This document shows, one piece after another, positions 3,784-63,985 of a stretch of DNA of 64,000 bases. The translations under genes and the position numbers were made by a program. The DNA lies in contig DXAL01000035.1 in the NCBI GenBank assembly GCA_019117125.1, forward strand, positions 52,618-116,617, in the 5' to 3' direction. The notes beneath the pieces were generated by a model, which ran no database searches, was not told where the DNA came from, and was given only the letters and a program-made list of their open reading frames with translations. Origin of the DNA: Candidatus Mediterraneibacter merdipullorum. GTDB lineage: Bacteria > Bacillota > Clostridia > Lachnospirales > Lachnospiraceae. The number at the start of each line of letters is the position of its first letter. Positions within the stretch are counted from its first letter, which is position 1.

Positions 3784-3976
3784 GGATGCCAGGGTCAAAA
3801 GGTCTAAGCCCACATGAGCTTGCTCATAAGTGGGTGAAAGACCTTGGGACCCGCCCCACTATGAGCATAAAAGTGGGATATATATCCCACGATATGCGAA
3901 TATTGGGGCGGATTATGGGAGTGCGGAGCACGGAACAATCCGCAGGCATCGCAATTAAGGGGCTTTTGACACCCTA
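3784..3976. repeat. Nested-palindrome intergenic element
   Basis: About 190 non-coding bases built almost wholly of nested inverted repeats. The ends are AGGGTCAAAAG (3791-3801) against CTTTTGACACCCT (3963-3975). Inside are AAGGTCT/AGACCTT (3799-3805 and 3839-3845), GCCCAC...GTGGG around a TGAGC/GCTCA stem (3808-3834), CCGCCCC/GGGGCGG (3851-3857 and 3905-3911) and the perfect palindrome GTGGGATATATATCCCAC (3873-3890). It abuts the stop codon of the DHHW gene. This architecture suits a miniature inverted-repeat element or a structured RNA; no other copy was seen in this window. Confidence 0.6.
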
Positions 3977-7234: not shown

Positions 7235-8085
7235 CCATCGACCTCCGCCAGCATATTCATCGCCCAGTACTGATAAAAATCCTTCTGGAAATGGATACCG
7301 TCCTGGTCATACAGGTCGCTGTGCTCCTCGTATACCTGGGTATTGTCGATAAAGTGATACCCCTTCTCCTCGCACCACGCCTTGAGCGCCTCATTGTACT
7401 CCGGTATCTCACGCCACTTCTCATTCTTCTCGAAAGCGCGTTCCTCCGCCGGGAAGATGGAATTGATATAGATTTCCGTATTCGGAAGGAGCGCTGTCAG
7501 CTGCTGCATGACTTCCTCGTACGCCGCCACATATTCCTCCGGCGTGTTCCACAGCCCGATGCCCTCGTCATTGAGCCCGGTGCACAGGAACAGATAGGAC
7601 GGATTGAGCGTCGCCATCTTCTCTTCGTGTTCTTCGATATTCAGGATGGTATACCCTGCTTCCGCGATGACGCGCTGACTGTCCAGGAATTCATAGAAGG
7701 TAAATCCCACGCTCCTGGAGTCCCCGAATATCAGGCAGTCGCTGAACTGCGCCCAGAGCGGTATCTCCCCCGCCTCGATTGCCTTTATCATGGACTGCTT
7801 CTGCACGGACTTGACATCCGCCTCCACAGTGGCGATATCCCTGCTCTCCAGTTCTTTAAGGTATTCGGTCCCGACACGGACCTCCTCCCTGTGCGGGTCC
7901 CAAAACGCCCGGACGAGCGTCACGATGCACAGGACCAGAATGAGCGCCCCCACGCAGAGGACAGGCAGCCTGTGCTTCCGGAACGAGCCTGCAATGCTCT
8001 CTTTTATCTGAACGAGACTGTTTTTCATCTCTCTGTAAAACCCCCAGTTTTTCATCTTTCGGCAGAATTCGACAGAATTAGCCAT
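7231..8085 (-). CDS. Membrane-anchored SGNH/GDSL hydrolase family protein
   Basis: A 284-residue protein with an N-terminal transmembrane helix (about 41-60) and an external SGNH-hydrolase domain. Block I reads IFGDSRSVG, the oxyanion-type motif is GLNDEGIG, and the C-terminal pair reads DQDGIHFQ. Enzymes of this fold transfer or remove acetyl esters; with the MBOAT neighbour it probably handles O-acetyl groups on an exported polymer. The first ATG (8085) has no good ribosome site and a TATTAT -10-like box lies only about ten bases upstream of it, so translation may start at 8028 (residue 20). It is the first gene of a four-gene operon and overlaps the next gene by 4 bases. Confidence 0.8.
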   Translation of the reverse strand: MANSVEFCRKMKNWGFYREMKNSLVQIKESIAGSFRKHRLPVLCVGALILVLCIVTLVRAFWDPHREEVRVGTEYLKELESRDIATVEADVKSVQKQSMIKAIEAGEIPLWAQFSDCLIFGDSRSVGFTFYEFLDSQRVIAEAGYTILNIEEHEEKMATLNPSYLFLCTGLNDEGIGLWNTPEEYVAAYEEVMQQLTALLPNTEIYINSIFPAEERAFEKNEKWREIPEYNEALKAWCEEKGYHFIDNTQVYEEHSDLYDQDGIHFQKDFYQYWAMNMLAEVDG

Positions 8086-8262
8086 ACTGAGATATAATAT
8101 CTGTATAATGTTACTTTTTTGTTAAGTTTTTATGTCATATTTATTAATTTCATCTGCCCGGACAGTAATCATTTCTCGTTTTCAGTATGGAAGAAGCGGT
8201 TTTCTTTTCGCGGGATGCCCGCTCGTGCAGGTCCGGCGTCCGCCCACCGGGCGCAGCCGCGC

Positions 8263-8305
8263 AAAAAACTCCACCCAGCCCGCACACCGGTGCGGTCACT
8301 GAGTG
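8263..8305 (-). terminator. Intrinsic terminator of htpG
   Basis: Downstream of the htpG stop on the minus strand a GC-rich hairpin (stem pairs CCAC/GTGG, CAG/CTG and CGCAC/GTGCG over 8271-8305) is followed by a T run at 8263-8268. Confidence 0.75.
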
Positions 8306-8326
8306 GATATTTCACACAATGTTTCT

Positions 8327-10384
8327 TTATTTTGTCAGGAGCATCATAATCTCATTGCTGCGCTGTACGAAAGCCGTCATCTCCTCCGGGCTGAGCGGCT
8401 TGTGCGCCAGCATCGCCAGGTCATAGAGCTGTCTGCAGATGATGGGCACATTCTTGCTGCGCTTATGCTCCACGAGGAACTTCACGAGCGGATGGTTCGC
8501 GTTCAGGATGAGCGTTGCCTGGCTGCCGAACATGGACGGGTCCATACCGTTCATGCCGTACATCTTCATCATCTCCGCCATACGCCTCTCCTGCTCGGAA
8601 AGGACTGCCATGGATGCCACATGGTCGTCTTTGAGCCTCTCGACTTTCACATCCAGCTTGTCATTGCCCAGCTCTTTGCGGAATATCTCCACAAGGCTGT
8701 CCGCGGTTTTCTGAAAATCTTCTTTCTCCTCCTCAGCCACTTCGTCTTTCAGGGACTCGTGGACATCGGCGTCAATCCGCAGGAAACGGATATCCTCATG
8801 CTTCTGCTCCAGATAGGTCACAAAGGCGGAATCAATGTTGTGCGTCAGGATGATGGCATCCTGCCCCTGCGCCTTGAACATGTTGATGTACTGGCTCTGC
8901 TGTACTTCGTCCGTCACATAGAAGATATCGGTCTTCTTCTCCTCTTTGCCGGCGCCGTCTCCAGCGGCATCGTCCTTCTGCTCCGCGTCCGGGGTGCTGT
9001 CTGCGCCTTCCGCCTCCGCAGTCTGCTCCTCCTCTTTCCGGTTCTCTTTGATGACCTCCTCAAGAGTCAGATATTTATGCTCCAGATTCTTGTAAATCAT
9101 GGAATCTTTCATCTTTTCGCCGAACTTCTCATCCTTGAGGCAGCCGAACTTGATGAACGGGCTGATGTCATCCCAGTATTTCTCATAGTTCTCCCGGTCT
9201 GTCTTGAACATCCCGACCAGCTTGTCCGCCACTTTCTTAGAGATGTAGTCCGCCACTTTCCCCACGAAGCCGTCATTCTGCAGGGCGCTTCTGGATACGT
9301 TGAGCGGCAGGTCCGGGCAGTCGATAACGCCCTTTAATACCATCAGGAATTCCGGGATGACCTCTTTGATGTTGTCCGCGATGAACACCTGATTGTTGTA
9401 CAGCTTAATCGTGCCCTCGATGGATTCGTACTCCATGTTAATCTTCGGGAAATAGAGGATACCCTTTAAGTTGAACGGATAATCCATGTTCAGATGTATC
9501 CAGAACAGCGGCTCCTTGTAATCCATAAATACCTTGCGGTAAAATGCGATATACTCGTCCTTTGTGCACTCGCTCGGGTTCTTGCCCCAGAGCGGATGGG
9601 TATCGCTGATGGACACCGGGCGCTTCACAATCTTCACCCGTTTCTTCGGCTCGCCCTCGCCCTCTTCTTTCTTCTCTTCCTCGATATGCTCGACCACTTC
9701 GTCGGTGTCGAGCAGTTCATCCTCGTCAATGGTCTCGTACTCCGGCTCCGCGTTCGCTTTGGAGAGGAATATCTCCACCGGCATGAAGGAGCAGTACTTC
9801 TCCAGGACTTCTCTTGCACGGTACTCGTTGGCAAACTCCAGGCTGTCTTCATTTAAGAACAGGGTAATCTCTGTGCCCACCGTCTCTTTGACGCCGTCCT
9901 GCATCTCGTACTCCGTGCCGCCCTGGCTCGCCCAGTGTACCGGAGATGCGCCTTCCTTATAAGAGAGCGTATCAATCTGCACCTCGTCCGCCACCATGAA
10001 CGCCGAGTAGAAGCCCAGACCGAAATGTCCTATCATATCATCTTCCGTCGTCTTGTCCTTGTACTTCTCCAGGAACTGGGTCGCACCGGAAAATGCAATC
10101 TGCGTGATATACTCTTCCACTTCCTCCGCCGTCATGCCAAGACCGTTGTCGATGAACTTCATCGTCTTCTCTTCCGGATTGACGATGACCTCAATCTTCG
10201 GCTGATAGCCTTCCGGGAGCTCATACTCTCCCATCATGTCCAGCTTCTTCAGCTTCGTGATGGCATCGCATCCGTTGGATATCATCTCGCGGACGAAAAT
10301 ATCATGGTCCGAATATACCCATTTCTTTATGATAGGAAATATATTCTCGCTGTCAATCGATAAATTGCCTTTCTTTACTTCCAT
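8327..10384 (-). CDS. htpG: Molecular chaperone HtpG (Hsp90 family)
   Basis: A 685-residue ATP-dependent chaperone. The GHKL ATPase N-domain shows the expected NGCDA, DNGLGM and GHFGLGFYSAFMVAD motifs in the first 130 residues, followed by the middle domain and a C-terminal dimerisation domain. Two acidic, lysine-rich linkers (near residues 215-235 and 475-500) are longer than in Escherichia coli HtpG, probably surface insertions. It is preceded by a sigma-A promoter and a CIRCE operator, so heat-shock control by HrcA is expected. It is monocistronic, with its own terminator. The start follows an AGGTGTGAA ribosome site. Confidence 0.97.
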   Translation of the reverse strand: MEVKKGNLSIDSENIFPIIKKWVYSDHDIFVREMISNGCDAITKLKKLDMMGEYELPEGYQPKIEVIVNPEEKTMKFIDNGLGMTAEEVEEYITQIAFSGATQFLEKYKDKTTEDDMIGHFGLGFYSAFMVADEVQIDTLSYKEGASPVHWASQGGTEYEMQDGVKETVGTEITLFLNEDSLEFANEYRAREVLEKYCSFMPVEIFLSKANAEPEYETIDEDELLDTDEVVEHIEEEKKEEGEGEPKKRVKIVKRPVSISDTHPLWGKNPSECTKDEYIAFYRKVFMDYKEPLFWIHLNMDYPFNLKGILYFPKINMEYESIEGTIKLYNNQVFIADNIKEVIPEFLMVLKGVIDCPDLPLNVSRSALQNDGFVGKVADYISKKVADKLVGMFKTDRENYEKYWDDISPFIKFGCLKDEKFGEKMKDSMIYKNLEHKYLTLEEVIKENRKEEEQTAEAEGADSTPDAEQKDDAAGDGAGKEEKKTDIFYVTDEVQQSQYINMFKAQGQDAIILTHNIDSAFVTYLEQKHEDIRFLRIDADVHESLKDEVAEEEKEDFQKTADSLVEIFRKELGNDKLDVKVERLKDDHVASMAVLSEQERRMAEMMKMYGMNGMDPSMFGSQATLILNANHPLVKFLVEHKRSKNVPIICRQLYDLAMLAHKPLSPEEMTAFVQRSNEIMMLLTK

Positions 10385-10470
10385 ATTTCACACCTCTTTA
10401 TACTGTCTCTTAACCTCGCCGCCGGCAGCAGACCGGCGTGCGCAGGGACTGTCCCCGCGCCCTAAGAGAC

Positions 10471-10499
10471 ATTGTAGTACAGGGAAAATTAAAAGTCAA
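10471..10499 (-). promoter_or_regulatory. Sigma-A promoter of htpG
   Basis: On the minus strand, -35 TTGACT (10499-10494), a 17-base spacer and -10 TACAAT (10476-10471), about 85 bases upstream of the htpG start. This is a near-consensus promoter. Confidence 0.85.
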
Positions 10500-10506
10500 T
10501 ATAAAA

Positions 10507-10533
10507 TTAGCACTCTTTTGGCAAGAGTGCTAA
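10507..10533 (-). promoter_or_regulatory. CIRCE operator (HrcA site) upstream of htpG
   Basis: Perfect CIRCE: TTAGCACTC at 10507-10515, nine spacer bases, GAGTGCTAA at 10525-10533. It sits 7 bases upstream of the -35 box of the htpG promoter; CIRCE more often overlaps or follows the start site. The same type of operator occurs before lon at 42405. Confidence 0.92.
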
Positions 10534-10547
10534 TAGTTCATGTGAAA

Positions 10548-11880
10548 TCACGATGCGTCTTTCCGTCTTCTGTACCTGAGATATCCGATGCCGCCGAGCA
10601 CAACCACAGATGCAAAGACCGCAATCACATATCCCGTCCAGCTTTCTTCGCCGGTTTGCACCGCCTGCGTCCTGCCGGGAGAGCCGTCCTCTGCTTGCTC
10701 TGTTTTCAGACTCTCCGCGTTCCCCTTATCATCAGAGGCAGAAGGCTGTTTCCCACCGCCGCTGTCCGAACTGCCGGGAGTTGTATCGTCCGGGTCCGAC
10801 GTTCCCGGAGTATCACTGCCTGTGTCATCCGGGTCCGACGGTTCCGGAGTATCACTGTCTGTGTCATCCGGGTCTGACGGTTCCGGGGTATCGCCGCCTG
10901 TATCAGCCGGGTCTTCCGCATAAAAGGATGTGCTTTCCTTCTCTGTCAGGCTGTCCGCGATATCTAACGCCACAAGACCGTTCTTTGTATAAGAGGCTGG
11001 TAAACTGGGTGGCATCCAAACCTTCCGCGTCTGCCGGAAGGCAAATTCTCCGGATGTTTTCATTATCTGTCGAAAACACATTTTCCTCAAACTTTGTCAC
11101 GGAATCCGGGAATACGACCTCCTGCAGGTTTGTTGCATAAAGCGCCCCTGACGCGACTGTTTTTGTGCCTTCCCGCACAGTGTAGCTTCCTTCCCGGTAC
11201 GTGGGAATGTTCACCAGTATCTGTTTCTCCTGGTCATACAGGACTCCGTCCACCGCCAGATATCTCCCGCCTGTATTCGGAGTTTCATACCGGTAGACTG
11301 CCCGCCAGTCATTCCAGACAGATACTTCCTCCTGAATCGATTCCGGCAGAATCAGTGTGCCGATGCTGTACCGGGATTTTGGCTGCCCCATCCCCTTAAC
11401 TCCCTCCGGGATGCAGGCTATCACAAATCTTTCCTTCATGCCGGTCAGATATCCCTGCTCGTCTATTTCCAGGCACTCGTCCCAGTCGCAGTATTTTTCC
11501 ATTGTCAGTCTTCCGGCAGACTGCGCCGCTGAATACGTGGTATAATTTTCAATCCGGAATGTATACCTCTTTCCCTGCTCCAGCATATAGTAGCCTCTTG
11601 AGCCGGTCAGGAGATTCCCGTCGTCGTCATACACCTGGCAGTAAATCTGCATCTCGTATGCCCACAACTCTCCATAAAAATCGAGATAATATCCGGCGCT
11701 TTCTTCCGGCTCAAATAAAAAAGTATAGTAGGCATGGGCGCCGCCGGGATTTTTCATCTGGTATGCCTGACCGCATACCATATTCGTGGTCGTCTCCGGC
11801 TCCAACTCTATCATCTCACTGTCGTCGACATAGGGTACCGGCTGGTCCGTCTCCTGCCCGGCAGCCTGTACACTGTCTTC
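10548..11880 (-). pseudogene. Decayed leucine-rich-repeat-like surface protein
   Basis: Two frames join into one gene remnant. The 5' part (11880 to about 10985) encodes an extracellular protein with LRR-like segments (ALYATNLQEVVFPDSV). Near 10983, in the context TAC AAA G AAC, one extra G shifts the frame; skipping it continues as YKNGLVALDIAD into the second frame, which runs to 10548. The C-terminal part carries three copies of a 13-residue repeat (DTPEPSDPDDT), a membrane helix and a basic RYRRRK tail, as in wall-associated proteins. The 5' end is also missing: no signal peptide or ribosome site precedes the frame, which opens directly after a TGA at 11881-11883, 17 bases past the cyclophilin stop. 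A sequencing error could explain the frameshift but not the missing 5' end. Confidence 0.75.
10793..10911 (-). repeat. 39-base tandem repeat in the surface-protein remnant
   Basis: Three units with a 39-base period (equivalent positions at 10811, 10850 and 10889) encode the Asp/Pro/Thr/Ser-rich stalk repeat of the decayed surface protein. Stalk repeats of this kind hold a surface domain away from the membrane. Confidence 0.85.
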
Positions 11881-58108: not shown

Positions 58109-60160
58109 TTATCTGTTTTGCTTTTTCCATCGTCTGTAGATTACGGTACCTGTAAGACCAGCGCTTGATGCCAGCGCCAGAATGATCCAGAGCAGGTAAT
58201 TGGAATTATCTCCCGTAGGAGGAGCTTCGTTTGTTCCTGATGGTTCTTCCTTGTCTGTCGGTGTCGTTGCATCCGGTTTCTCGGTCGGCTGGGAAGGATC
58301 GCCTGTCGTTCCAGTTGCTGGGATTTCAACTGCGTCCTTTTTGTAGCCGCATACGGTACATTCCTCATGCCTGGAGCCTGCCTGCGTAGCGGTAGCTTCC
58401 GTATCAATTACCCACTTAAAGGTATGTTCCGCCTTGTTTATGGTTTCGCCGCATTCACAGGTATTCCAATGGTTGGTTTCGTCATACTGCCAGTCGCCTT
58501 CTGCCACGCAGGTGTGTGCGGCAATTGTGACAGTCACAGCGGTGGATGCAAGAGCTGTTCCGTCTGCCTTTACACGGACTTCATAGGCTCCGTTGGTAAG
58601 TCCCGTAACGGAATTACCGGGAACGTCCGTCCAAACGGAAGCCGTGGACAGCTTATATTCCATTGTGCTGTCAACGCCCGTGATCTGTCCATCGTTCTGT
58701 TCGCTTGTGGTGCAGTCCACTGCAAGAACGCCTGTTGGCGGCTCCGCCTGCGTCACGTCAATGGTCTGCACTGCGGAGTCGGAAGTCGTTATACCGTTCC
58801 CTGGTTTGTACACCTTTACATCATTTGACGCTGTTACGCCGGTAATCGGCATTGTTGTATCAGTAATACCATTCCATGTACTGCCGCCGTCCACGCTGTA
58901 TTTCATAGAAACATCCACGTCCGAAAGGACGCCGCCGTTATCACTTGCGGCGGTAAACGTGGCGTTTGGCGTTGTTTCCAGCGACAGGGGGACTTTCAGA
59001 TTAATCGTTTGAAAAGAGCTGGCATAGTCTGTTTTATAGTTGCCGTTGCACTGCTCGGAAAACACCTCCAGCTTATAATCTCCGGCCGCAAGGCCTGACG
59101 GAAGGCTGACCGTAGCCGTGCCGCTTTCGCTGTCCTGGGCGATATTTCCGTAGTAAAGAACGGTGTTACTGCTGTCACAGAGCAGGACAGAAACATATTC
59201 TTTTTCGCCTGTCTCTGCACCCGAATAGCTAATCTGTACGCTGTCGCCCGCCTGAGCGGAAACGTTTGTCTGTCCGTTCACATTGGCTGAAAATCTGCGG
59301 CTTTCATCCTTTAGTGTTAATTTCCATTCGTTTCCGGTATAATCTCCAATTTCAAAAATCGATCCGGCTGCTTCGCCGCCTTGATTACCGCCGCTTGCAG
59401 CGGAGGAGATTTTTCCGCCTTCGGCGGCAGATATGAAGAGGACAGAGTTCAGATCTAAATTAAAAGCGGGGCGCGCAGCCCAGTCGTGGTCCACATTGTG
59501 AATGTACACTTGGCCGTGAGCGTAGACGAGGCCCGCACTGCTCGTAATGCCGGCGTAGGGCGAGCGGAGCCACCACACACCGGCTCTATTGCCATAATTG
59601 GCAATACGCGCATTGTCATCGGTAAAACCGTATGCGCTGTTTTCCGCTTCCTCTGCCGAGAGGAAAAATACCTTGTCGCCGTTTAAGATATTTTCAGAAG
59701 CGGCAAATGGTACTCTATATGTACTGCTGCTGGTAAACTCTGTATCGCTTTTCGTGGTTTCTAAAACCGCGTTTTGCTCTTTACTACTGAAATTATTACT
59801 GTAAAAGTTTTTACACCACGTTTGCGCCGTACTATTTTGCCATACTTTGCTGTCGCTTCCGCTATTGTCAAAATACACGCCTCCATAAGTATCCGTCCCA
59901 AGCAACACATCAGAGAGCAGGAACAGACCTTCGTTTTGGGTGTTGGTCTGCTCGTCCAATACCCGCCATTTTATGGGGCTATTGTCCCATTCGCCGTAAT
60001 AGATATAGTCATATCCATTTGTACTGTCATAGCCGCTGATGTTGCTTGCGCCAAGCTGAATAGCCTTATCGTTATTGGCCGCAAAAGCCGCTGTGGGCAT
60101 AATCCCTACTACAAGGCAGATTGCAAGTAGTAAACTTAAAATCCTTCTTTTGGGTTTCAT
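58109..60160 (-). CDS. Surface-anchored DGR target protein with internal variable region
   Basis: 683 residues. Signal peptide 1-28 (cut after AAFA). Residues about 30-245 resemble the DUF6273/C-type-lectin-like domain: DYIYYGEWDNSPIKWRVLD, VWWLRSP and WAARPAFNLDLNSVLF. Residues 196-232 are the variable repeat, rich in Tyr, Ser, His, Gly and Asp at template Asn positions. Further on are Ig-like or fibronectin-like beta segments (about 270-540), a Cys-containing CEC/CTVC segment, a Pro/Thr-rich stalk, the sortase-like PPTGD motif, a membrane helix and RRWKKQNR. It is therefore displayed on the cell wall. The ribosome site AGGAGGAGG is strong. The variable region is internal, not at the C-terminus as in many DGR targets. 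Confidence 0.92.
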   Translation of the reverse strand: MKPKRRILSLLLAICLVVGIMPTAAFAANNDKAIQLGASNISGYDSTNGYDYIYYGEWDNSPIKWRVLDEQTNTQNEGLFLLSDVLLGTDTYGGVYFDNSGSDSKVWQNSTAQTWCKNFYSNNFSSKEQNAVLETTKSDTEFTSSSTYRVPFAASENILNGDKVFFLSAEEAENSAYGFTDDNARIANYGNRAGVWWLRSPYAGITSSAGLVYAHGQVYIHNVDHDWAARPAFNLDLNSVLFISAAEGGKISSAASGGNQGGEAAGSIFEIGDYTGNEWKLTLKDESRRFSANVNGQTNVSAQAGDSVQISYSGAETGEKEYVSVLLCDSSNTVLYYGNIAQDSESGTATVSLPSGLAAGDYKLEVFSEQCNGNYKTDYASSFQTINLKVPLSLETTPNATFTAASDNGGVLSDVDVSMKYSVDGGSTWNGITDTTMPITGVTASNDVKVYKPGNGITTSDSAVQTIDVTQAEPPTGVLAVDCTTSEQNDGQITGVDSTMEYKLSTASVWTDVPGNSVTGLTNGAYEVRVKADGTALASTAVTVTIAAHTCVAEGDWQYDETNHWNTCECGETINKAEHTFKWVIDTEATATQAGSRHEECTVCGYKKDAVEIPATGTTGDPSQPTEKPDATTPTDKEEPSGTNEAPPTGDNSNYLLWIILALASSAGLTGTVIYRRWKKQNR
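59466..59575 (-). repeat. DGR variable repeat (VR)
   Basis: 110 bases inside the target gene (codons about 196-232). Aligned without gaps to the template repeat at 60336-60445 it shows 20 differences; 17 lie at adenines of the template coding strand and three at other bases (two C, one T). Fifteen of sixteen template AAY codons are changed (to Tyr, Gly, Ile, Ser, Ala, His, Gln, Asp). The 3' end is an unmutated GC-rich block (GCTGCGCGCCCCGC), as expected of an initiation-of-mutagenic-homology site. Confidence 0.95.
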
Positions 60161-60335
60161 TGTGCCTCCTCCTGTCCTTCTTCATATCATTTATGCGTTC
60201 ATGGGCATTTCGCCCAGAATAGCCGTTACTTCCCCTTTTGGGGCTTTCGTCAATACGAAGCTGCCATATATCTAGCCGTTTTCCGGCTCGCACAGGCTTG
60301 TCCCGCTTGGGGCAAGCATCGGGCGATAAGGCGAC

Positions 60336-60445
60336 GCGGGGCGCGCAGCCCAGTCGTTGTTCACATTGTTGTTGTTCACGTTGCCGTTATTGTTGACGAG
60401 GCCCGCATTGTTCGTATTGTTTGCGTTGGGAGAGCGGAGCCACCA
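60336..60445 (-). repeat. DGR template repeat (TR)
   Basis: Non-coding template copy of the variable repeat, read on the minus strand. Translated in the matching frame it gives WWLRSPNANNTNN and further runs of Asn from AAC/AAT codons, the classical adenine-rich template. It lies 57 bases downstream of avd and about 175 bases upstream of the target gene start. No reverse transcriptase follows at the usual place; the leader of the target gene follows instead. Confidence 0.95.
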
Positions 60446-60502
60446 GTAGCCCGCGCTCAAGATTTTACAACCTTATCCCGTATATGATGAAAGCCTTTCG
60501 GC

Positions 60503-60892
60503 TTACACCCCCAGTCGTTTCCTGTCGCTGTTCAGCCATGCGCACAGCATGTTCTGGCAGTCGTGGATTTTCTTTGTGATCTGCTCATACTGCTTTGGCA
60601 GTATGCAGCCCTGCTCCATAGATAGCTGCGCCATATAGCCCAATAGTTTCAATTCCGTCAAGGCTTGGTGCTGGAAGTCTATGCGCTGCTGCGCCTTTTC
60701 CCTGTCGCCCGCTTTGACAAACACCTCGTTTGCCCGGTACAGGTTTTCGATAATGTTCAGCGCGTAGTTTTGCAGCTTTGCAACAAGGGTAAATCGGAAA
60801 CGCTTTGGCGATTTATCCGTTACCGTCATCACATAGGAGCAGAGGTCTTTTGCCTTTGTGATAACCGCTAACTCGCTTTGATAAGCCGCCAT
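60503..60892 (-). CDS. avd: DGR accessory protein Avd (four-helix bundle)
   Basis: 129 residues, all helical. The segments KDLCSYVMTVTDKSPKRFRFTLVAKLQNYALNIIENLYRANE, HQALTELKLLGYMAQLSMEQGCI and YEQITKKIHDCQNMLCAWLNSDRK match the Avd/23S-IVP four-helix-bundle family. Avd pentamers bind the DGR reverse transcriptase and template RNA. The ATG at 60892 follows AGGAGAGG by eight bases; an ATG at 60916 has no site. It directly precedes the TR, the usual order, but the reverse transcriptase is missing. Confidence 0.9.
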   Translation of the reverse strand: MAAYQSELAVITKAKDLCSYVMTVTDKSPKRFRFTLVAKLQNYALNIIENLYRANEVFVKAGDREKAQQRIDFQHQALTELKLLGYMAQLSMEQGCILPKQYEQITKKIHDCQNMLCAWLNSDRKRLGV

Positions 60893-61076: not shown

Positions 61077-62651
61077 TTATGCCTGTATCTCTGTCCCGTC
61101 CTTAAAGGTGACCCGGATATCCTTTTCGCTGTGCACCGTGACGAAATCTACCAGGCTCGACCACAGCCTTTCATCAAACTGCGTGACCGGCTCCTGCACC
61201 TCCACCGTATGGAGGAACTGCTCCAGCAGCTTTTTGCGGTCGGCTTTGTCGGCGACTGCCTGTGTGACCTCATCGTACTGTGCCTTGACCGCTTCATAGC
61301 GGCTGACCAGCCCATTGTAACGCTCGGTATACTCGTCCTGATCGAGGGCGACACGGGCATTCTCCGTCACGCACCGCTCTACCAGGCCAACCACGACCTC
61401 CAGTTCTTCCTTCAGTTCTGTCTGTCGCTTTTCCAGTTCTGCACTGTCGCACAGCATGGCGATGACCATCTGCACATTGGCAGATAATTCTTCCTTCTCT
61501 GAGAGCAGGATGTTGACTGCTCGGACAAATGCGTCCTTGACCTGATCTTCCGTGACATGGGGCGTGCTGCATGGCTTTCCGCCTTTGTACTTGTGATTGC
61601 ACTGGTAGATGACCCGGCGGTATTTATCTGTGGAGTGCCATACCTTTGAGCCATACCAACATCCGCATTCGCCGCATTTGATCTTGGAGGAAAACATACT
61701 CACGCCGCTGTAGCGGTGCTTATCCTTCATCCGCCGCGCCATCTCCGCCTGGACGTAGTCGAAGGTGTCCGGATCGATGATGGCTTCATGGTTGCCTTCC
61801 ACATAGTACTGCGGGACCTCGCCCTCGTTCTTTTTCGTTTTCTTCTGGAGGAAGTCCACCGTGAACTCCTTCTGCAGGAGTGCATCGCCTTTGTACTTCT
61901 CGTTGGTAAGGATGCTGCGGACGGTGCTTTGGCTCCAGACCGCCTTGCCGCCCGGAGTCGGCAGTTTCCGCTCTGTCAGTTCCTTTGCGATGGCGTGGCA
62001 GGTCAGCCCATCCAGAAACAGCTTGTAAATCAACTTGACCGTCTTTGCCTGTTCCTGATTGACCACGAAGCCGCCGTTGGGACCCCGGTCATAGCCCAGG
62101 AACCGCTTGTAGGCCACACTCGCCTTGCCGTCGGCGAACCGCTTCCGCTGGCCCCAGGTTGTGTTCTCCGAAATGCTCCGGCTCTCCTCCTGGGGGAGGC
62201 TTGACATGATGGTGATGAGCAGCTCGCCCTTGGCGTCCAGCGTCCAGATGTTCTCCTTTTCAAAGTAGATCTCCACGCCCTTTTCTTTCAGCATCCGCAC
62301 GGTAGTCAGGCTGTCCACTGTATTTCTGGCAAACCGGCTGACACTTTTTGTTACTATAAGGTCGATCTTTCCGGCAAGGGCATCCGCCACCATCGCCTTG
62401 AAGCCCTCGCGCCGCTTGGTATTGGTCGCAGAGATTCCTTCGTCCGTATAGATGGAAACAAACTCCCAATCATCCCGTCCCTTGATGTAATTGGTGTAAT
62501 AGTCCACCTGCGCTTCGTAGCTGGTGACCTGGTCTTCGTGGTCGGTGGAGACGCGGGCATAACCGGCGACACGGCGTTTCCGCTTGCTGCCGATGGGCGC
62601 GGCGGTGTATTTCGTGATGGTAGCCGGAATCGCCGTTACTTTTTTCTGCAT
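61077..62651 (-). CDS. Large serine recombinase
   Basis: 524 residues. Resolvase catalytic domain at the N-terminus: AGYARVSTDHEDQ with catalytic Ser near residue 35, and SVSRFARNTVDSL. A recombinase domain (about 180-300), a zinc-ribbon domain with KCGECGCWYG and CNHKYKGGKPCS, and a coiled-coil segment (400-470) follow. Enzymes of this type integrate and excise transposons and integrative elements. It overlaps the recombinase upstream by 16 bases, so both are coupled. It lies next to the DGR cargo. Confidence 0.95.
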   Translation of the reverse strand: MQKKVTAIPATITKYTAAPIGSKRKRRVAGYARVSTDHEDQVTSYEAQVDYYTNYIKGRDDWEFVSIYTDEGISATNTKRREGFKAMVADALAGKIDLIVTKSVSRFARNTVDSLTTVRMLKEKGVEIYFEKENIWTLDAKGELLITIMSSLPQEESRSISENTTWGQRKRFADGKASVAYKRFLGYDRGPNGGFVVNQEQAKTVKLIYKLFLDGLTCHAIAKELTERKLPTPGGKAVWSQSTVRSILTNEKYKGDALLQKEFTVDFLQKKTKKNEGEVPQYYVEGNHEAIIDPDTFDYVQAEMARRMKDKHRYSGVSMFSSKIKCGECGCWYGSKVWHSTDKYRRVIYQCNHKYKGGKPCSTPHVTEDQVKDAFVRAVNILLSEKEELSANVQMVIAMLCDSAELEKRQTELKEELEVVVGLVERCVTENARVALDQDEYTERYNGLVSRYEAVKAQYDEVTQAVADKADRKKLLEQFLHTVEVQEPVTQFDERLWSSLVDFVTVHSEKDIRVTFKDGTEIQA

Positions 62652-63985
62652 TTGTCTTTCCGCTCCTTTCTCCGCGCCATTTCTTTTTTCATAAATTCCG
62701 CCTTTGCCGCCCTCCGCTCCGGCGTCCAGCAGTCCTGATGCCCCGTATTCGGACAGGCCTTTGTTACCACACTGCCATCCGCCATATGAAACTCCAGCGT
62801 ATAGCGTTCTGGCACATCGATATGGTCCACCTTTTCCAAAAAGATGGCTTCATCAAATTCATCAAGCCCCAGAACTTCCGTGCAGACCCTGACCATATTT
62901 TTGTGGTTGATGGTGCCTCCCACAGGACAGCCGGTGCCTTTCTTCTTTTTCTTTTTGCTTCCGCAGTTCCAGAACTCCATATAGCCCCGGTCTGTCCGCT
63001 TGTTGTGCATATAGCTCTGGCCGCAGTATGGGCATTTGATTTTTCCTGTAAAGCAGGAAGTGTTCAGGCTCTTGTTTGCCAACGGTCCCAGTTCCCTGCG
63101 CCTTGCCATTTCTTCCTGCACAAAGTCAAAAGCGGCCTTGTCGATTATGGCAGGATGGGTGTCCTCCACATAGTACTGCGGAAGTTCCCCTCGGTTCTTT
63201 TTCCGCTGCTTGGAGATAGGGTCGGAGATGAACTCCTTTTGCAGGAGCAGGTTTCCTGTGTAGGTCACATTGGTCAGCACCACCTTGATGTTGGAATCCA
63301 CCCAACGGTGCCCCTCTCTGGTAGTGATGCCCTCGGCGGCAAATTCCCGCTCTGTTTCCAGCCGGGATTTTCCGTCCAGAAAGTTCTGGAAGATTCGCTT
63401 TACGATTTCCGCCTCCTCCGGTACAATGACCAGTTCGTCACCCTCCCAACGGTAGCCGTAGATGCGGAAACGGCCGTTGGGAATGCCGTTCTGCATCCGC
63501 TTCCGAATGCCCCATTTCACATTATCAGAAATGCTGCGGCTCTCCTCCTGGGCAAAGGACGCCAGGATGGTCAGCATCAGTTCGCCGTCCCCATCCATCG
63601 AGCGTATGCGTTCTTTCTCGAACTGCACCTCAACGCCTAAATCCTTCAAATGCCGCACCGTTTCCAGAAGATCCACCGTATTCCTGGCAAACCGTGAAAT
63701 GCTCTTTGTCAGGATGATGTCTATCTTGCCTGCCTCGCAGTCGGCAAGCATCCGTTTGAACTCATCGCGCTTTACCGTGTTGGTACCGGAAATAAAATCA
63801 TCTGCATAGACCCCGGCATACTCCCAGTCTGGGTTCTTCTGGATCAGCCCGCTGTAGTAGCTCACCTGTGCGGAAAGGGAGTGGAGCATCCGTTCCGACT
63901 GCATGGACACTCTGGCGTAAGCGGCTACCTTCTTCTTTTCCCGGATGGCGGGTACAGCCGCTTCGATTTTTCTTAAATTCGGCAT
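62636..63985 (-). CDS. Large serine recombinase, second of a pair
   Basis: 449 residues. Catalytic domain AAYARVSMQSERM (Ser near residue 27), SISRFARNTVDLL, then the recombinase domain and the zinc-ribbon with KCPYCGQSYM; the C-terminal Lys/Arg-rich helix ends at the start of the next gene. It differs from the downstream recombinase by a shorter C-terminus and a different catalytic context, so it is not a recent duplicate. The start follows AAGGAGCG. The gene overlaps the next one by 16 bases. More recombinase genes may lie to the right of the window. Confidence 0.95.
   Translation of the reverse strand: MPNLRKIEAAVPAIREKKKVAAYARVSMQSERMLHSLSAQVSYYSGLIQKNPDWEYAGVYADDFISGTNTVKRDEFKRMLADCEAGKIDIILTKSISRFARNTVDLLETVRHLKDLGVEVQFEKERIRSMDGDGELMLTILASFAQEESRSISDNVKWGIRKRMQNGIPNGRFRIYGYRWEGDELVIVPEEAEIVKRIFQNFLDGKSRLETEREFAAEGITTREGHRWVDSNIKVVLTNVTYTGNLLLQKEFISDPISKQRKKNRGELPQYYVEDTHPAIIDKAAFDFVQEEMARRRELGPLANKSLNTSCFTGKIKCPYCGQSYMHNKRTDRGYMEFWNCGSKKKKKKGTGCPVGGTINHKNMVRVCTEVLGLDEFDEAIFLEKVDHIDVPERYTLEFHMADGSVVTKACPNTGHQDCWTPERRAAKAEFMKKEMARRKERKDKCRKK

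Follow-up and report, generated by a model that had tools for sequence, protein, structure and literature searches.

A Probably Inactivated Diversity-Generating Retroelement Retaining avd and Its Repeats but Only the Last 26 Reverse Transcriptase Codons in Candidatus Mediterraneibacter merdipullorum

Gene Content of the Locus

The analysed stretch of contig DXAL01000035.1 of Candidatus Mediterraneibacter merdipullorum (64,000 nucleotides at its full length, referred to as the window) belongs to a 55-contig draft genome of 2.31 Mb that is 94.26% complete. The contig's end coincides with the window's end (64000). The window carries a cassette with components of a diversity-generating retroelement (DGR): the accessory gene avd, a template repeat (TR), a remnant of a reverse transcriptase (RT) gene and a target gene carrying a variable repeat (VR). 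A homologous RT-bearing cassette, locus L007, is present in Christensenellaceae MAG Phil1. The features of the window locus are as follows.

58109..60160, minus strand: target gene, 683 aa (open reading frame with a profile match to DUF6273; signal peptide and C-terminal features by eye)
59366..59429, minus strand: three short GC-rich inverted repeats downstream of the VR, possible retrohoming hairpins (role by analogy with BPP-1; PMC3240598)
59466..59575, minus strand: VR, target residues 196-232 (TR/VR alignment)
60194..60271, minus strand: RT gene remnant, last 26 codons, with the stop codon at 60191-60193 (identity to P0243, P0244 and P0245)
60273..60274, minus strand: deletion junction, where L007 8642-9855 (1,214 bases) is absent (blastn against L007)
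60336..60445, minus strand: TR (alignment with the VR)
60503..60892, minus strand: avd (accessory variability determinant), open frame of 129 codons plus stop (profile matches)
61077..63985, minus strand: two adjacent large serine recombinases (61077-62651 and 62636-63985), upstream of avd (profile matches)

The Avd accessory protein is encoded by the cassette, as evidenced by the match of the avd product to phrog_3206 of PHROGs ('Avd protein of DGR', 1.5e-22); the matches to NF033474 of NCBIfam (6e-15) and PF22296 (bAvd) of Pfam (2e-9) lie below the cut-offs of these models. A start at 60892 is likely, the resulting length of 129 aa being common to many relatives among the matches listed, while the alternative reading from 60916 (137 aa) overlaps the ribosome-binding site of avd. 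An avd gene adjoining the TR and starting at 60892 had been predicted originally, and both the PHROGs match and the 129-aa relatives listed support this assignment.

The serine recombinases likely belong to a mobile element that would have brought the cassette. The position of these two adjacent genes suggests that the cassette lies at one extremity of the mobile element and that the remainder is unassembled. The two recombinases are about 45-47% identical to each other over the matched stretches and reach the contig end. Carriage of the cassette on a known plasmid or phage was considered and rejected: no known plasmid matched avd or the stretch that reaches from avd as far as the start of the target, and the phage and viral matches were at just 35-36% identity. 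The latter comprise two matches of avd among phages (about 36%), one of them to a record named Phage nd12, and one match of an RT query to viral contigs (35%); with avd as the query no match to viral contigs was confirmed.

Template and Variable Repeats

The TR (60336-60445) and VR (59466-59575), both on the minus strand, align without gaps over 110 bases, of which 90 are identical. Adenines of the TR account for 17 of the 20 differences (33/110 TR bases are A; hypergeometric p = 2e-8), so that the computed alignment bears out the original prediction on this point, and only 3 of the 77 non-adenine TR positions differ from the VR. Substitutions at TR adenines are spread about evenly (A to C, 6; A to G, 6; A to T, 5). 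Of the AAY codons of the TR, 14 of 15 are altered in the VR, which corrects the earlier count of 15 of 16. With adenines treated as wild cards, the VR matches the TR at 107 of 110 positions, and the next best stretch in a scan of the whole window reaches 75. A search of the genome with the TR (E <= 0.001) returned solely the TR and the VR themselves; no further TR/VR pair, which the original prediction had proposed looking for, was found in this draft genome. The predicted RNA fold of the TR region is not unusual (z = -1.47).

Differences between the repeats are similarly concentrated at adenines in L007 (18/19, main block), L008 (20/20), L058 (15/15), L060 (21/24), L009 (21/35) and L059 (20/34). 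A second candidate VR of L060 is weak (23/53, p = 0.04). Both repeats of the window can be read as a DUF6273-like peptide, and the best TR/VR alignment of L011 lacks significance (8/13, p = 0.13), as would suit an ordinary diverged gene duplication in which the adenine bias arose by chance. The strength of the bias in the window, its recurrence in L007, L008, L058 and L060 and the position of avd next to the TR leave such a duplication a negligible probability.

Target Protein and Its Variation among Relatives

The VR lies in frame within the open reading frame 58109-60160, at the C-terminal end of a DUF6273 domain (residues 95-236, 5.2e-17), a known target domain, which agrees with the earlier description of the target as a DUF6273-like protein bearing the VR. 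An Ig-like match at residues 298-383 is weak and below the cut-off. A signal peptide and, at the C terminus, a PPTGD motif, a hydrophobic helix and basic residues were seen by eye. The original prediction described the protein as wall-anchored, a description that lacks support: the motif and the helix are present, yet a profile search of the genome for sortase (PF04203) found none, the same search being positive in 3 of 14 control genomes. Membrane anchoring is the safer reading of this sequence, and the protein may be displayed at the surface. The predicted model of the variable domain had a mean pLDDT of 38.8, too low to use, and comparison of this domain with the PDB by sequence gave no convincing relative.

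Among the best 120 target relatives listed, eight (P0127-P0130, P0132-P0134 and P0149) are, leaving aside P0124, which is the entry of the window itself, at least 94% identical to the window's target across the non-VR part of residues 31-270. Differences from the window affect 134 of 5,138 aligned positions outside the VR (2.6%; about 97% identity) and 3 of 144 adenine-free VR codons (2.1%). At AAY codons 100 of 120 differ (83%), and at the other adenine codons of the VR 7 of 24. One common VR is carried by P0130 and P0132. Differences among related copies are thus concentrated at adenine codons, in a comparison close to the test that the original prediction had proposed. Because the relatives differ at AAY codons and hardly at adenine-free ones, the target family diversifies in nature, in the adenine-codon pattern that mutagenic retrohoming leaves.

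Deletion of the Reverse Transcriptase Gene

Complete DGRs require an RT. No RT gene is present in the window, a point on which the original prediction was silent. A PF00078 profile search of the genome's contigs yielded no candidates, while 3 of 14 control genomes were positive, and with the RT P0243 as the query (E <= 1, all contigs) the remnant at 60194-60271 was the sole match. This remnant, which comprises 26 codons, is identical at 25 of 26 residues to the ends of three public RTs (P0243, P0244 and P0245).

The avd gene of L007 is 84% identical to that of the window, and the gene order of its cassette is avd-TR-RT (359 aa)-target. In blastn alignments, window positions 60952-60274 correspond to L007 positions 7963-8641, and positions 60273-59295 to 9856-10829. 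The 1,214 bases missing at the single point 60274|60273 encode RT residues 1-333 in L007, about 93% of the gene. In the comparison with L007, the sequence shared at the breakpoint amounts to at most a base or so. The breakpoint is located 62 bases past the TR and 113 bases ahead of the target's start codon. As the leader and ribosome-binding site of the target gene were spared by the deletion, the target protein is probably still made. With its distance of 62 bases, the breakpoint may coincide with the region that in BPP-1 primes cDNA synthesis. No viral contig contains the exact junction, and of 102 loci it occurs in just 6, all of them cut from the window's own contig.

Of a DGR-type RT gene there are 26 terminal codons here, and nothing was found elsewhere in the draft genome; the locus is therefore DGR-derived and not a complete DGR. 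In this assembly it has the features of an inactivated DGR, namely a retained TR/VR pair and an RT disabled by mutation. A side observation concerns P0244 (492 aa), in which an open frame reads the same TR peptide through into the RT; in that copy the template itself could thus be translated, forming the N-terminal part of a fusion with the RT.

Reverse Transcriptase Loss at Other avd Loci

Searches for avd were positive in 2 of 61 relatives, 15 of 392 genomes of the order and 5 of 391 genomes of the class (E <= 1e-12 for the class), the source genome being counted among the positives each time. From these positives and four named loci, 19 avd loci with sequence extending past the RT position were taken for comparison. 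An RT frame of at least 300 codons is open in 14 of them; these include L077, where the first 43 residues are not covered by the RT match, and L009, whose open avd frame is shorter than the avd match. In the other five (the window, L010, L060, L061 and L066) the RT is broken or absent.

At L010 (Flavonifractor sp. An10, 7999-11765) avd is joined at its residue 94 to residue 169 of the RT, with no TR between, and the target (1,013 aa) is open. This cassette looks mosaic at the DNA level, because its avd piece is 98% identical to that of the window and its RT tail and target about 77-79%. At L060 (7404-8966 and 8947-13725) avd, TR and target are open, and RT residues 105-169 are missing with a frame change. 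The avd gene of L061 is cut at residue 90, with no RT match, and L066, on an inverted-duplicate contig, has pieces missing from both avd and RT; these two loci, both from one 77% complete genome, may be assembly faults. The right-hand RT breakpoints of L010 and L060 are close together, but with two cases this is too few to be taken as a pattern.

Left out of the 19 loci were L057, whose avd is located where a contig ends, another avd fragment on the contig of L058, and seven weak avd places (G378:C146, G068, G406, G245, G293:C18, G212 and G098). Because three of these places (G098, G212 and G068) adjoin RT matches whose frames are open over a long stretch, the proportion of 5/19 probably overstates RT loss, and becomes 5/22 if they are added. 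A separate RT search of 344 genomes of the order was positive in 18 at E <= 1e-40, although some of these matches are broken or truncated where a contig stops.

Decay Signs and Post-VR Stems

The decay signs in the window copy are mild. Against its three non-adenine TR/VR differences, L007 has 1, L008 and L058 have none, and L009 and L059 have 14 each. As the last two loci have open RT frames, such differences alone do not date the loss of an RT.

The inverted repeats downstream of the VR were placed by hand and their pairing compared at the DNA level in three loci. The pairs formed are 6/7, 7/8 and 5/6 in the window, 7/7, 8/8 and 6/6 in L007, and 7/7, 8/8 and 5/6 in L010. When at least six pairs were demanded in a scan, L007 had three stems and L010 two, whereas the window and L009 had none; only 30 bases were available to scan in L008. 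The change in the second stem of the window replaces Ala by Ser. For 29 of 119 listed relatives this position holds Ala in 26, falls in a deletion across the stretch in 1, belongs to an absent stretch in 2, and is Ser in none. Across these three loci the mismatches would fit a loss of constraint after RT loss. In BPP-1 a hairpin is needed for efficient retrohoming, and 4-nt GRNA hairpin loops are reported for phage DGRs (available text of PMC3240598); the loops here are 3 nt. The open RT frame of L009, which has no such stems, speaks against a strict need for them.

Interpretation of the Locus

The adenine bias, the presence of avd, the homologous RT-bearing cassette L007 and the adenine-codon variation among near-identical relatives together identify the footprint of DGR retrohoming. 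In this respect the original prediction of mutagenic retrohoming stands; its further proposal, that the system would diversify the target, lacks support, as the RT gene is deleted in this assembly and the searches of the 94.26% complete genome yielded no other RT. An active DGR was for the same reason rejected as the main reading of this assembly. Because avd, the TR and the adenine-substituted VR are kept but the RT is reduced to its last 26 codons, the locus is very probably a DGR that formerly rewrote its target and was then inactivated by a single deletion, its VR now being frozen. In the intact ancestor, TR RNA, RT and Avd would have produced an error-prone cDNA of the TR, which would have been copied into the VR of the DUF6273 protein gene. 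A single deletion, if real in the organism, would then have removed 1.2 kb including RT residues 1-333, and the VR would since have been altered solely by ordinary mutation or recombination.

The strongest limit on the deletion is that it comes from a single draft assembly, whose completeness of 94.26% leaves some room for an RT elsewhere in the strain. The organism might possess the RT, the deletion being an assembly artefact or a minority allele from mixed strains, and the DGR be active: the genome is fragmented into 55 contigs with a contig end 3.7 kb away, full-length public RTs have a nearly identical tail, and the VR varies strongly among near relatives. We regard this as improbable, given that, in the comparison with L007, there is at most a base or so of shared sequence at the junction, no contig contains another RT piece that the P0243 query detects, the close relative in the named Flavonifractor record (L010) has an RT deletion of its own, and the target-site stems of the window differ from those of the intact L007. 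Supply of RT in trans by another DGR of the same cell, with the cassette still active, would be consistent with the intact avd, TR and VR, and the loss of one RT because another suffices has been proposed for Pseudogulbenkiania (PMC3521204, available text). With no RT domain in the genome by either the PF00078 profile or the P0243 query and no second TR-like place, this is very improbable here.

A broader proposal builds on the preferred reading of the window as an inactivated DGR. In gut Firmicutes of this family, RT loss might have been selected repeatedly as a means of fixing a receptor that fits well: the DUF6273 protein would diversify, a good variant would win, and deletions removing the RT but sparing the target would then be favoured. 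The window, L010 and L060 fit this scheme, since each has a deletion of its own and has kept its target open; we nevertheless consider it improbable. An earlier suggestion, in the available text of PMC7517822, is that diversification parts are perhaps removed once a good variant has been selected.

Comparison with Known Systems

Inactivated DGRs with intact TR/VR have been described in Ruminococcus gnavus ATCC 29149, Acaryochloris marina MBIC11017 and Bacteroides sp. 9_1_42FAA (Schillinger 2012, PMC3521204; this and the following sources in the text available). DGR inactivation itself is therefore already described, and the window is a further case. Like these systems, it retains an adenine-biased TR/VR pair with the RT gene disabled; they differ in that inactivation was by nonsense mutation, insertion or frameshift and their VRs have only A changes, whereas the window has a deletion of about 93% of the RT and three non-adenine differences. 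Targets without RT or TR occur in Treponema denticola isolates (PMC4891356), where the target likewise keeps its VR after the machinery is lost; there both TR and RT were not found, whereas in the window TR and avd remain. A metagenome survey reported signs of recent activity in 50-75% of DGRs per group (PMC8144416). A word search of the available text of PMC6642488 found no mention of a missing RT.

The window shares with L007 avd, the TR, the target, the gene order and the flanking sequence up to the breakpoint. It differs from L007 in the complete RT frame of the latter (359 aa), its fully paired post-VR stems and the 1-base deletion of its VR. That deletion in the L007 VR (10537-10660), relative to its TR, would shift the target frame and may be an assembly error.

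The tentaclins of gut phages combine DUF6273 and Ig-like domains, and their variable domain was modelled as a C-type lectin (PMC10743442, available text); the same paper describes targets of a phage nd12, the name borne by one of the phage records matched by avd. The window target resembles them in its N-terminal DUF6273 domain with the VR, followed by an Ig-like region (a weak match); tentaclins are phage proteins, whereas in the window target a signal peptide and, towards the C terminus, a hydrophobic helix can be recognised by eye. The DUF6273 targets of Faecalibacterium phages also have the VR at the C-terminal end of this domain (PMC11792537, available text).

The locus, previously presented as an active hypermutation system, thus becomes a case of natural loss for which a working counterpart is available. 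Cassettes of this kind occur both with an RT (L007) and without one (the window, L010 and L060), and near-identical targets with different VRs are present in public data. Their comparison would allow asking whether selection maintains a VR once it is frozen and at what rate a target site decays after the loss of the enzyme.

MutS-like genes are known to occur near DGRs, and at L011, from the same genus, a gene between the TR and the RT (1162-1728) resembles, by eye, the N-terminal domain of MutS. Elsewhere in the source genome, a stretch of 149 bases at C32:869-1017 (L052) shows 73% identity to a segment of the target gene that encodes its C-terminal part and does not include the VR. The window also contains a Clostridiales-1 RNA (RF01699, 133 bits) at 3784-3951 on the plus strand.
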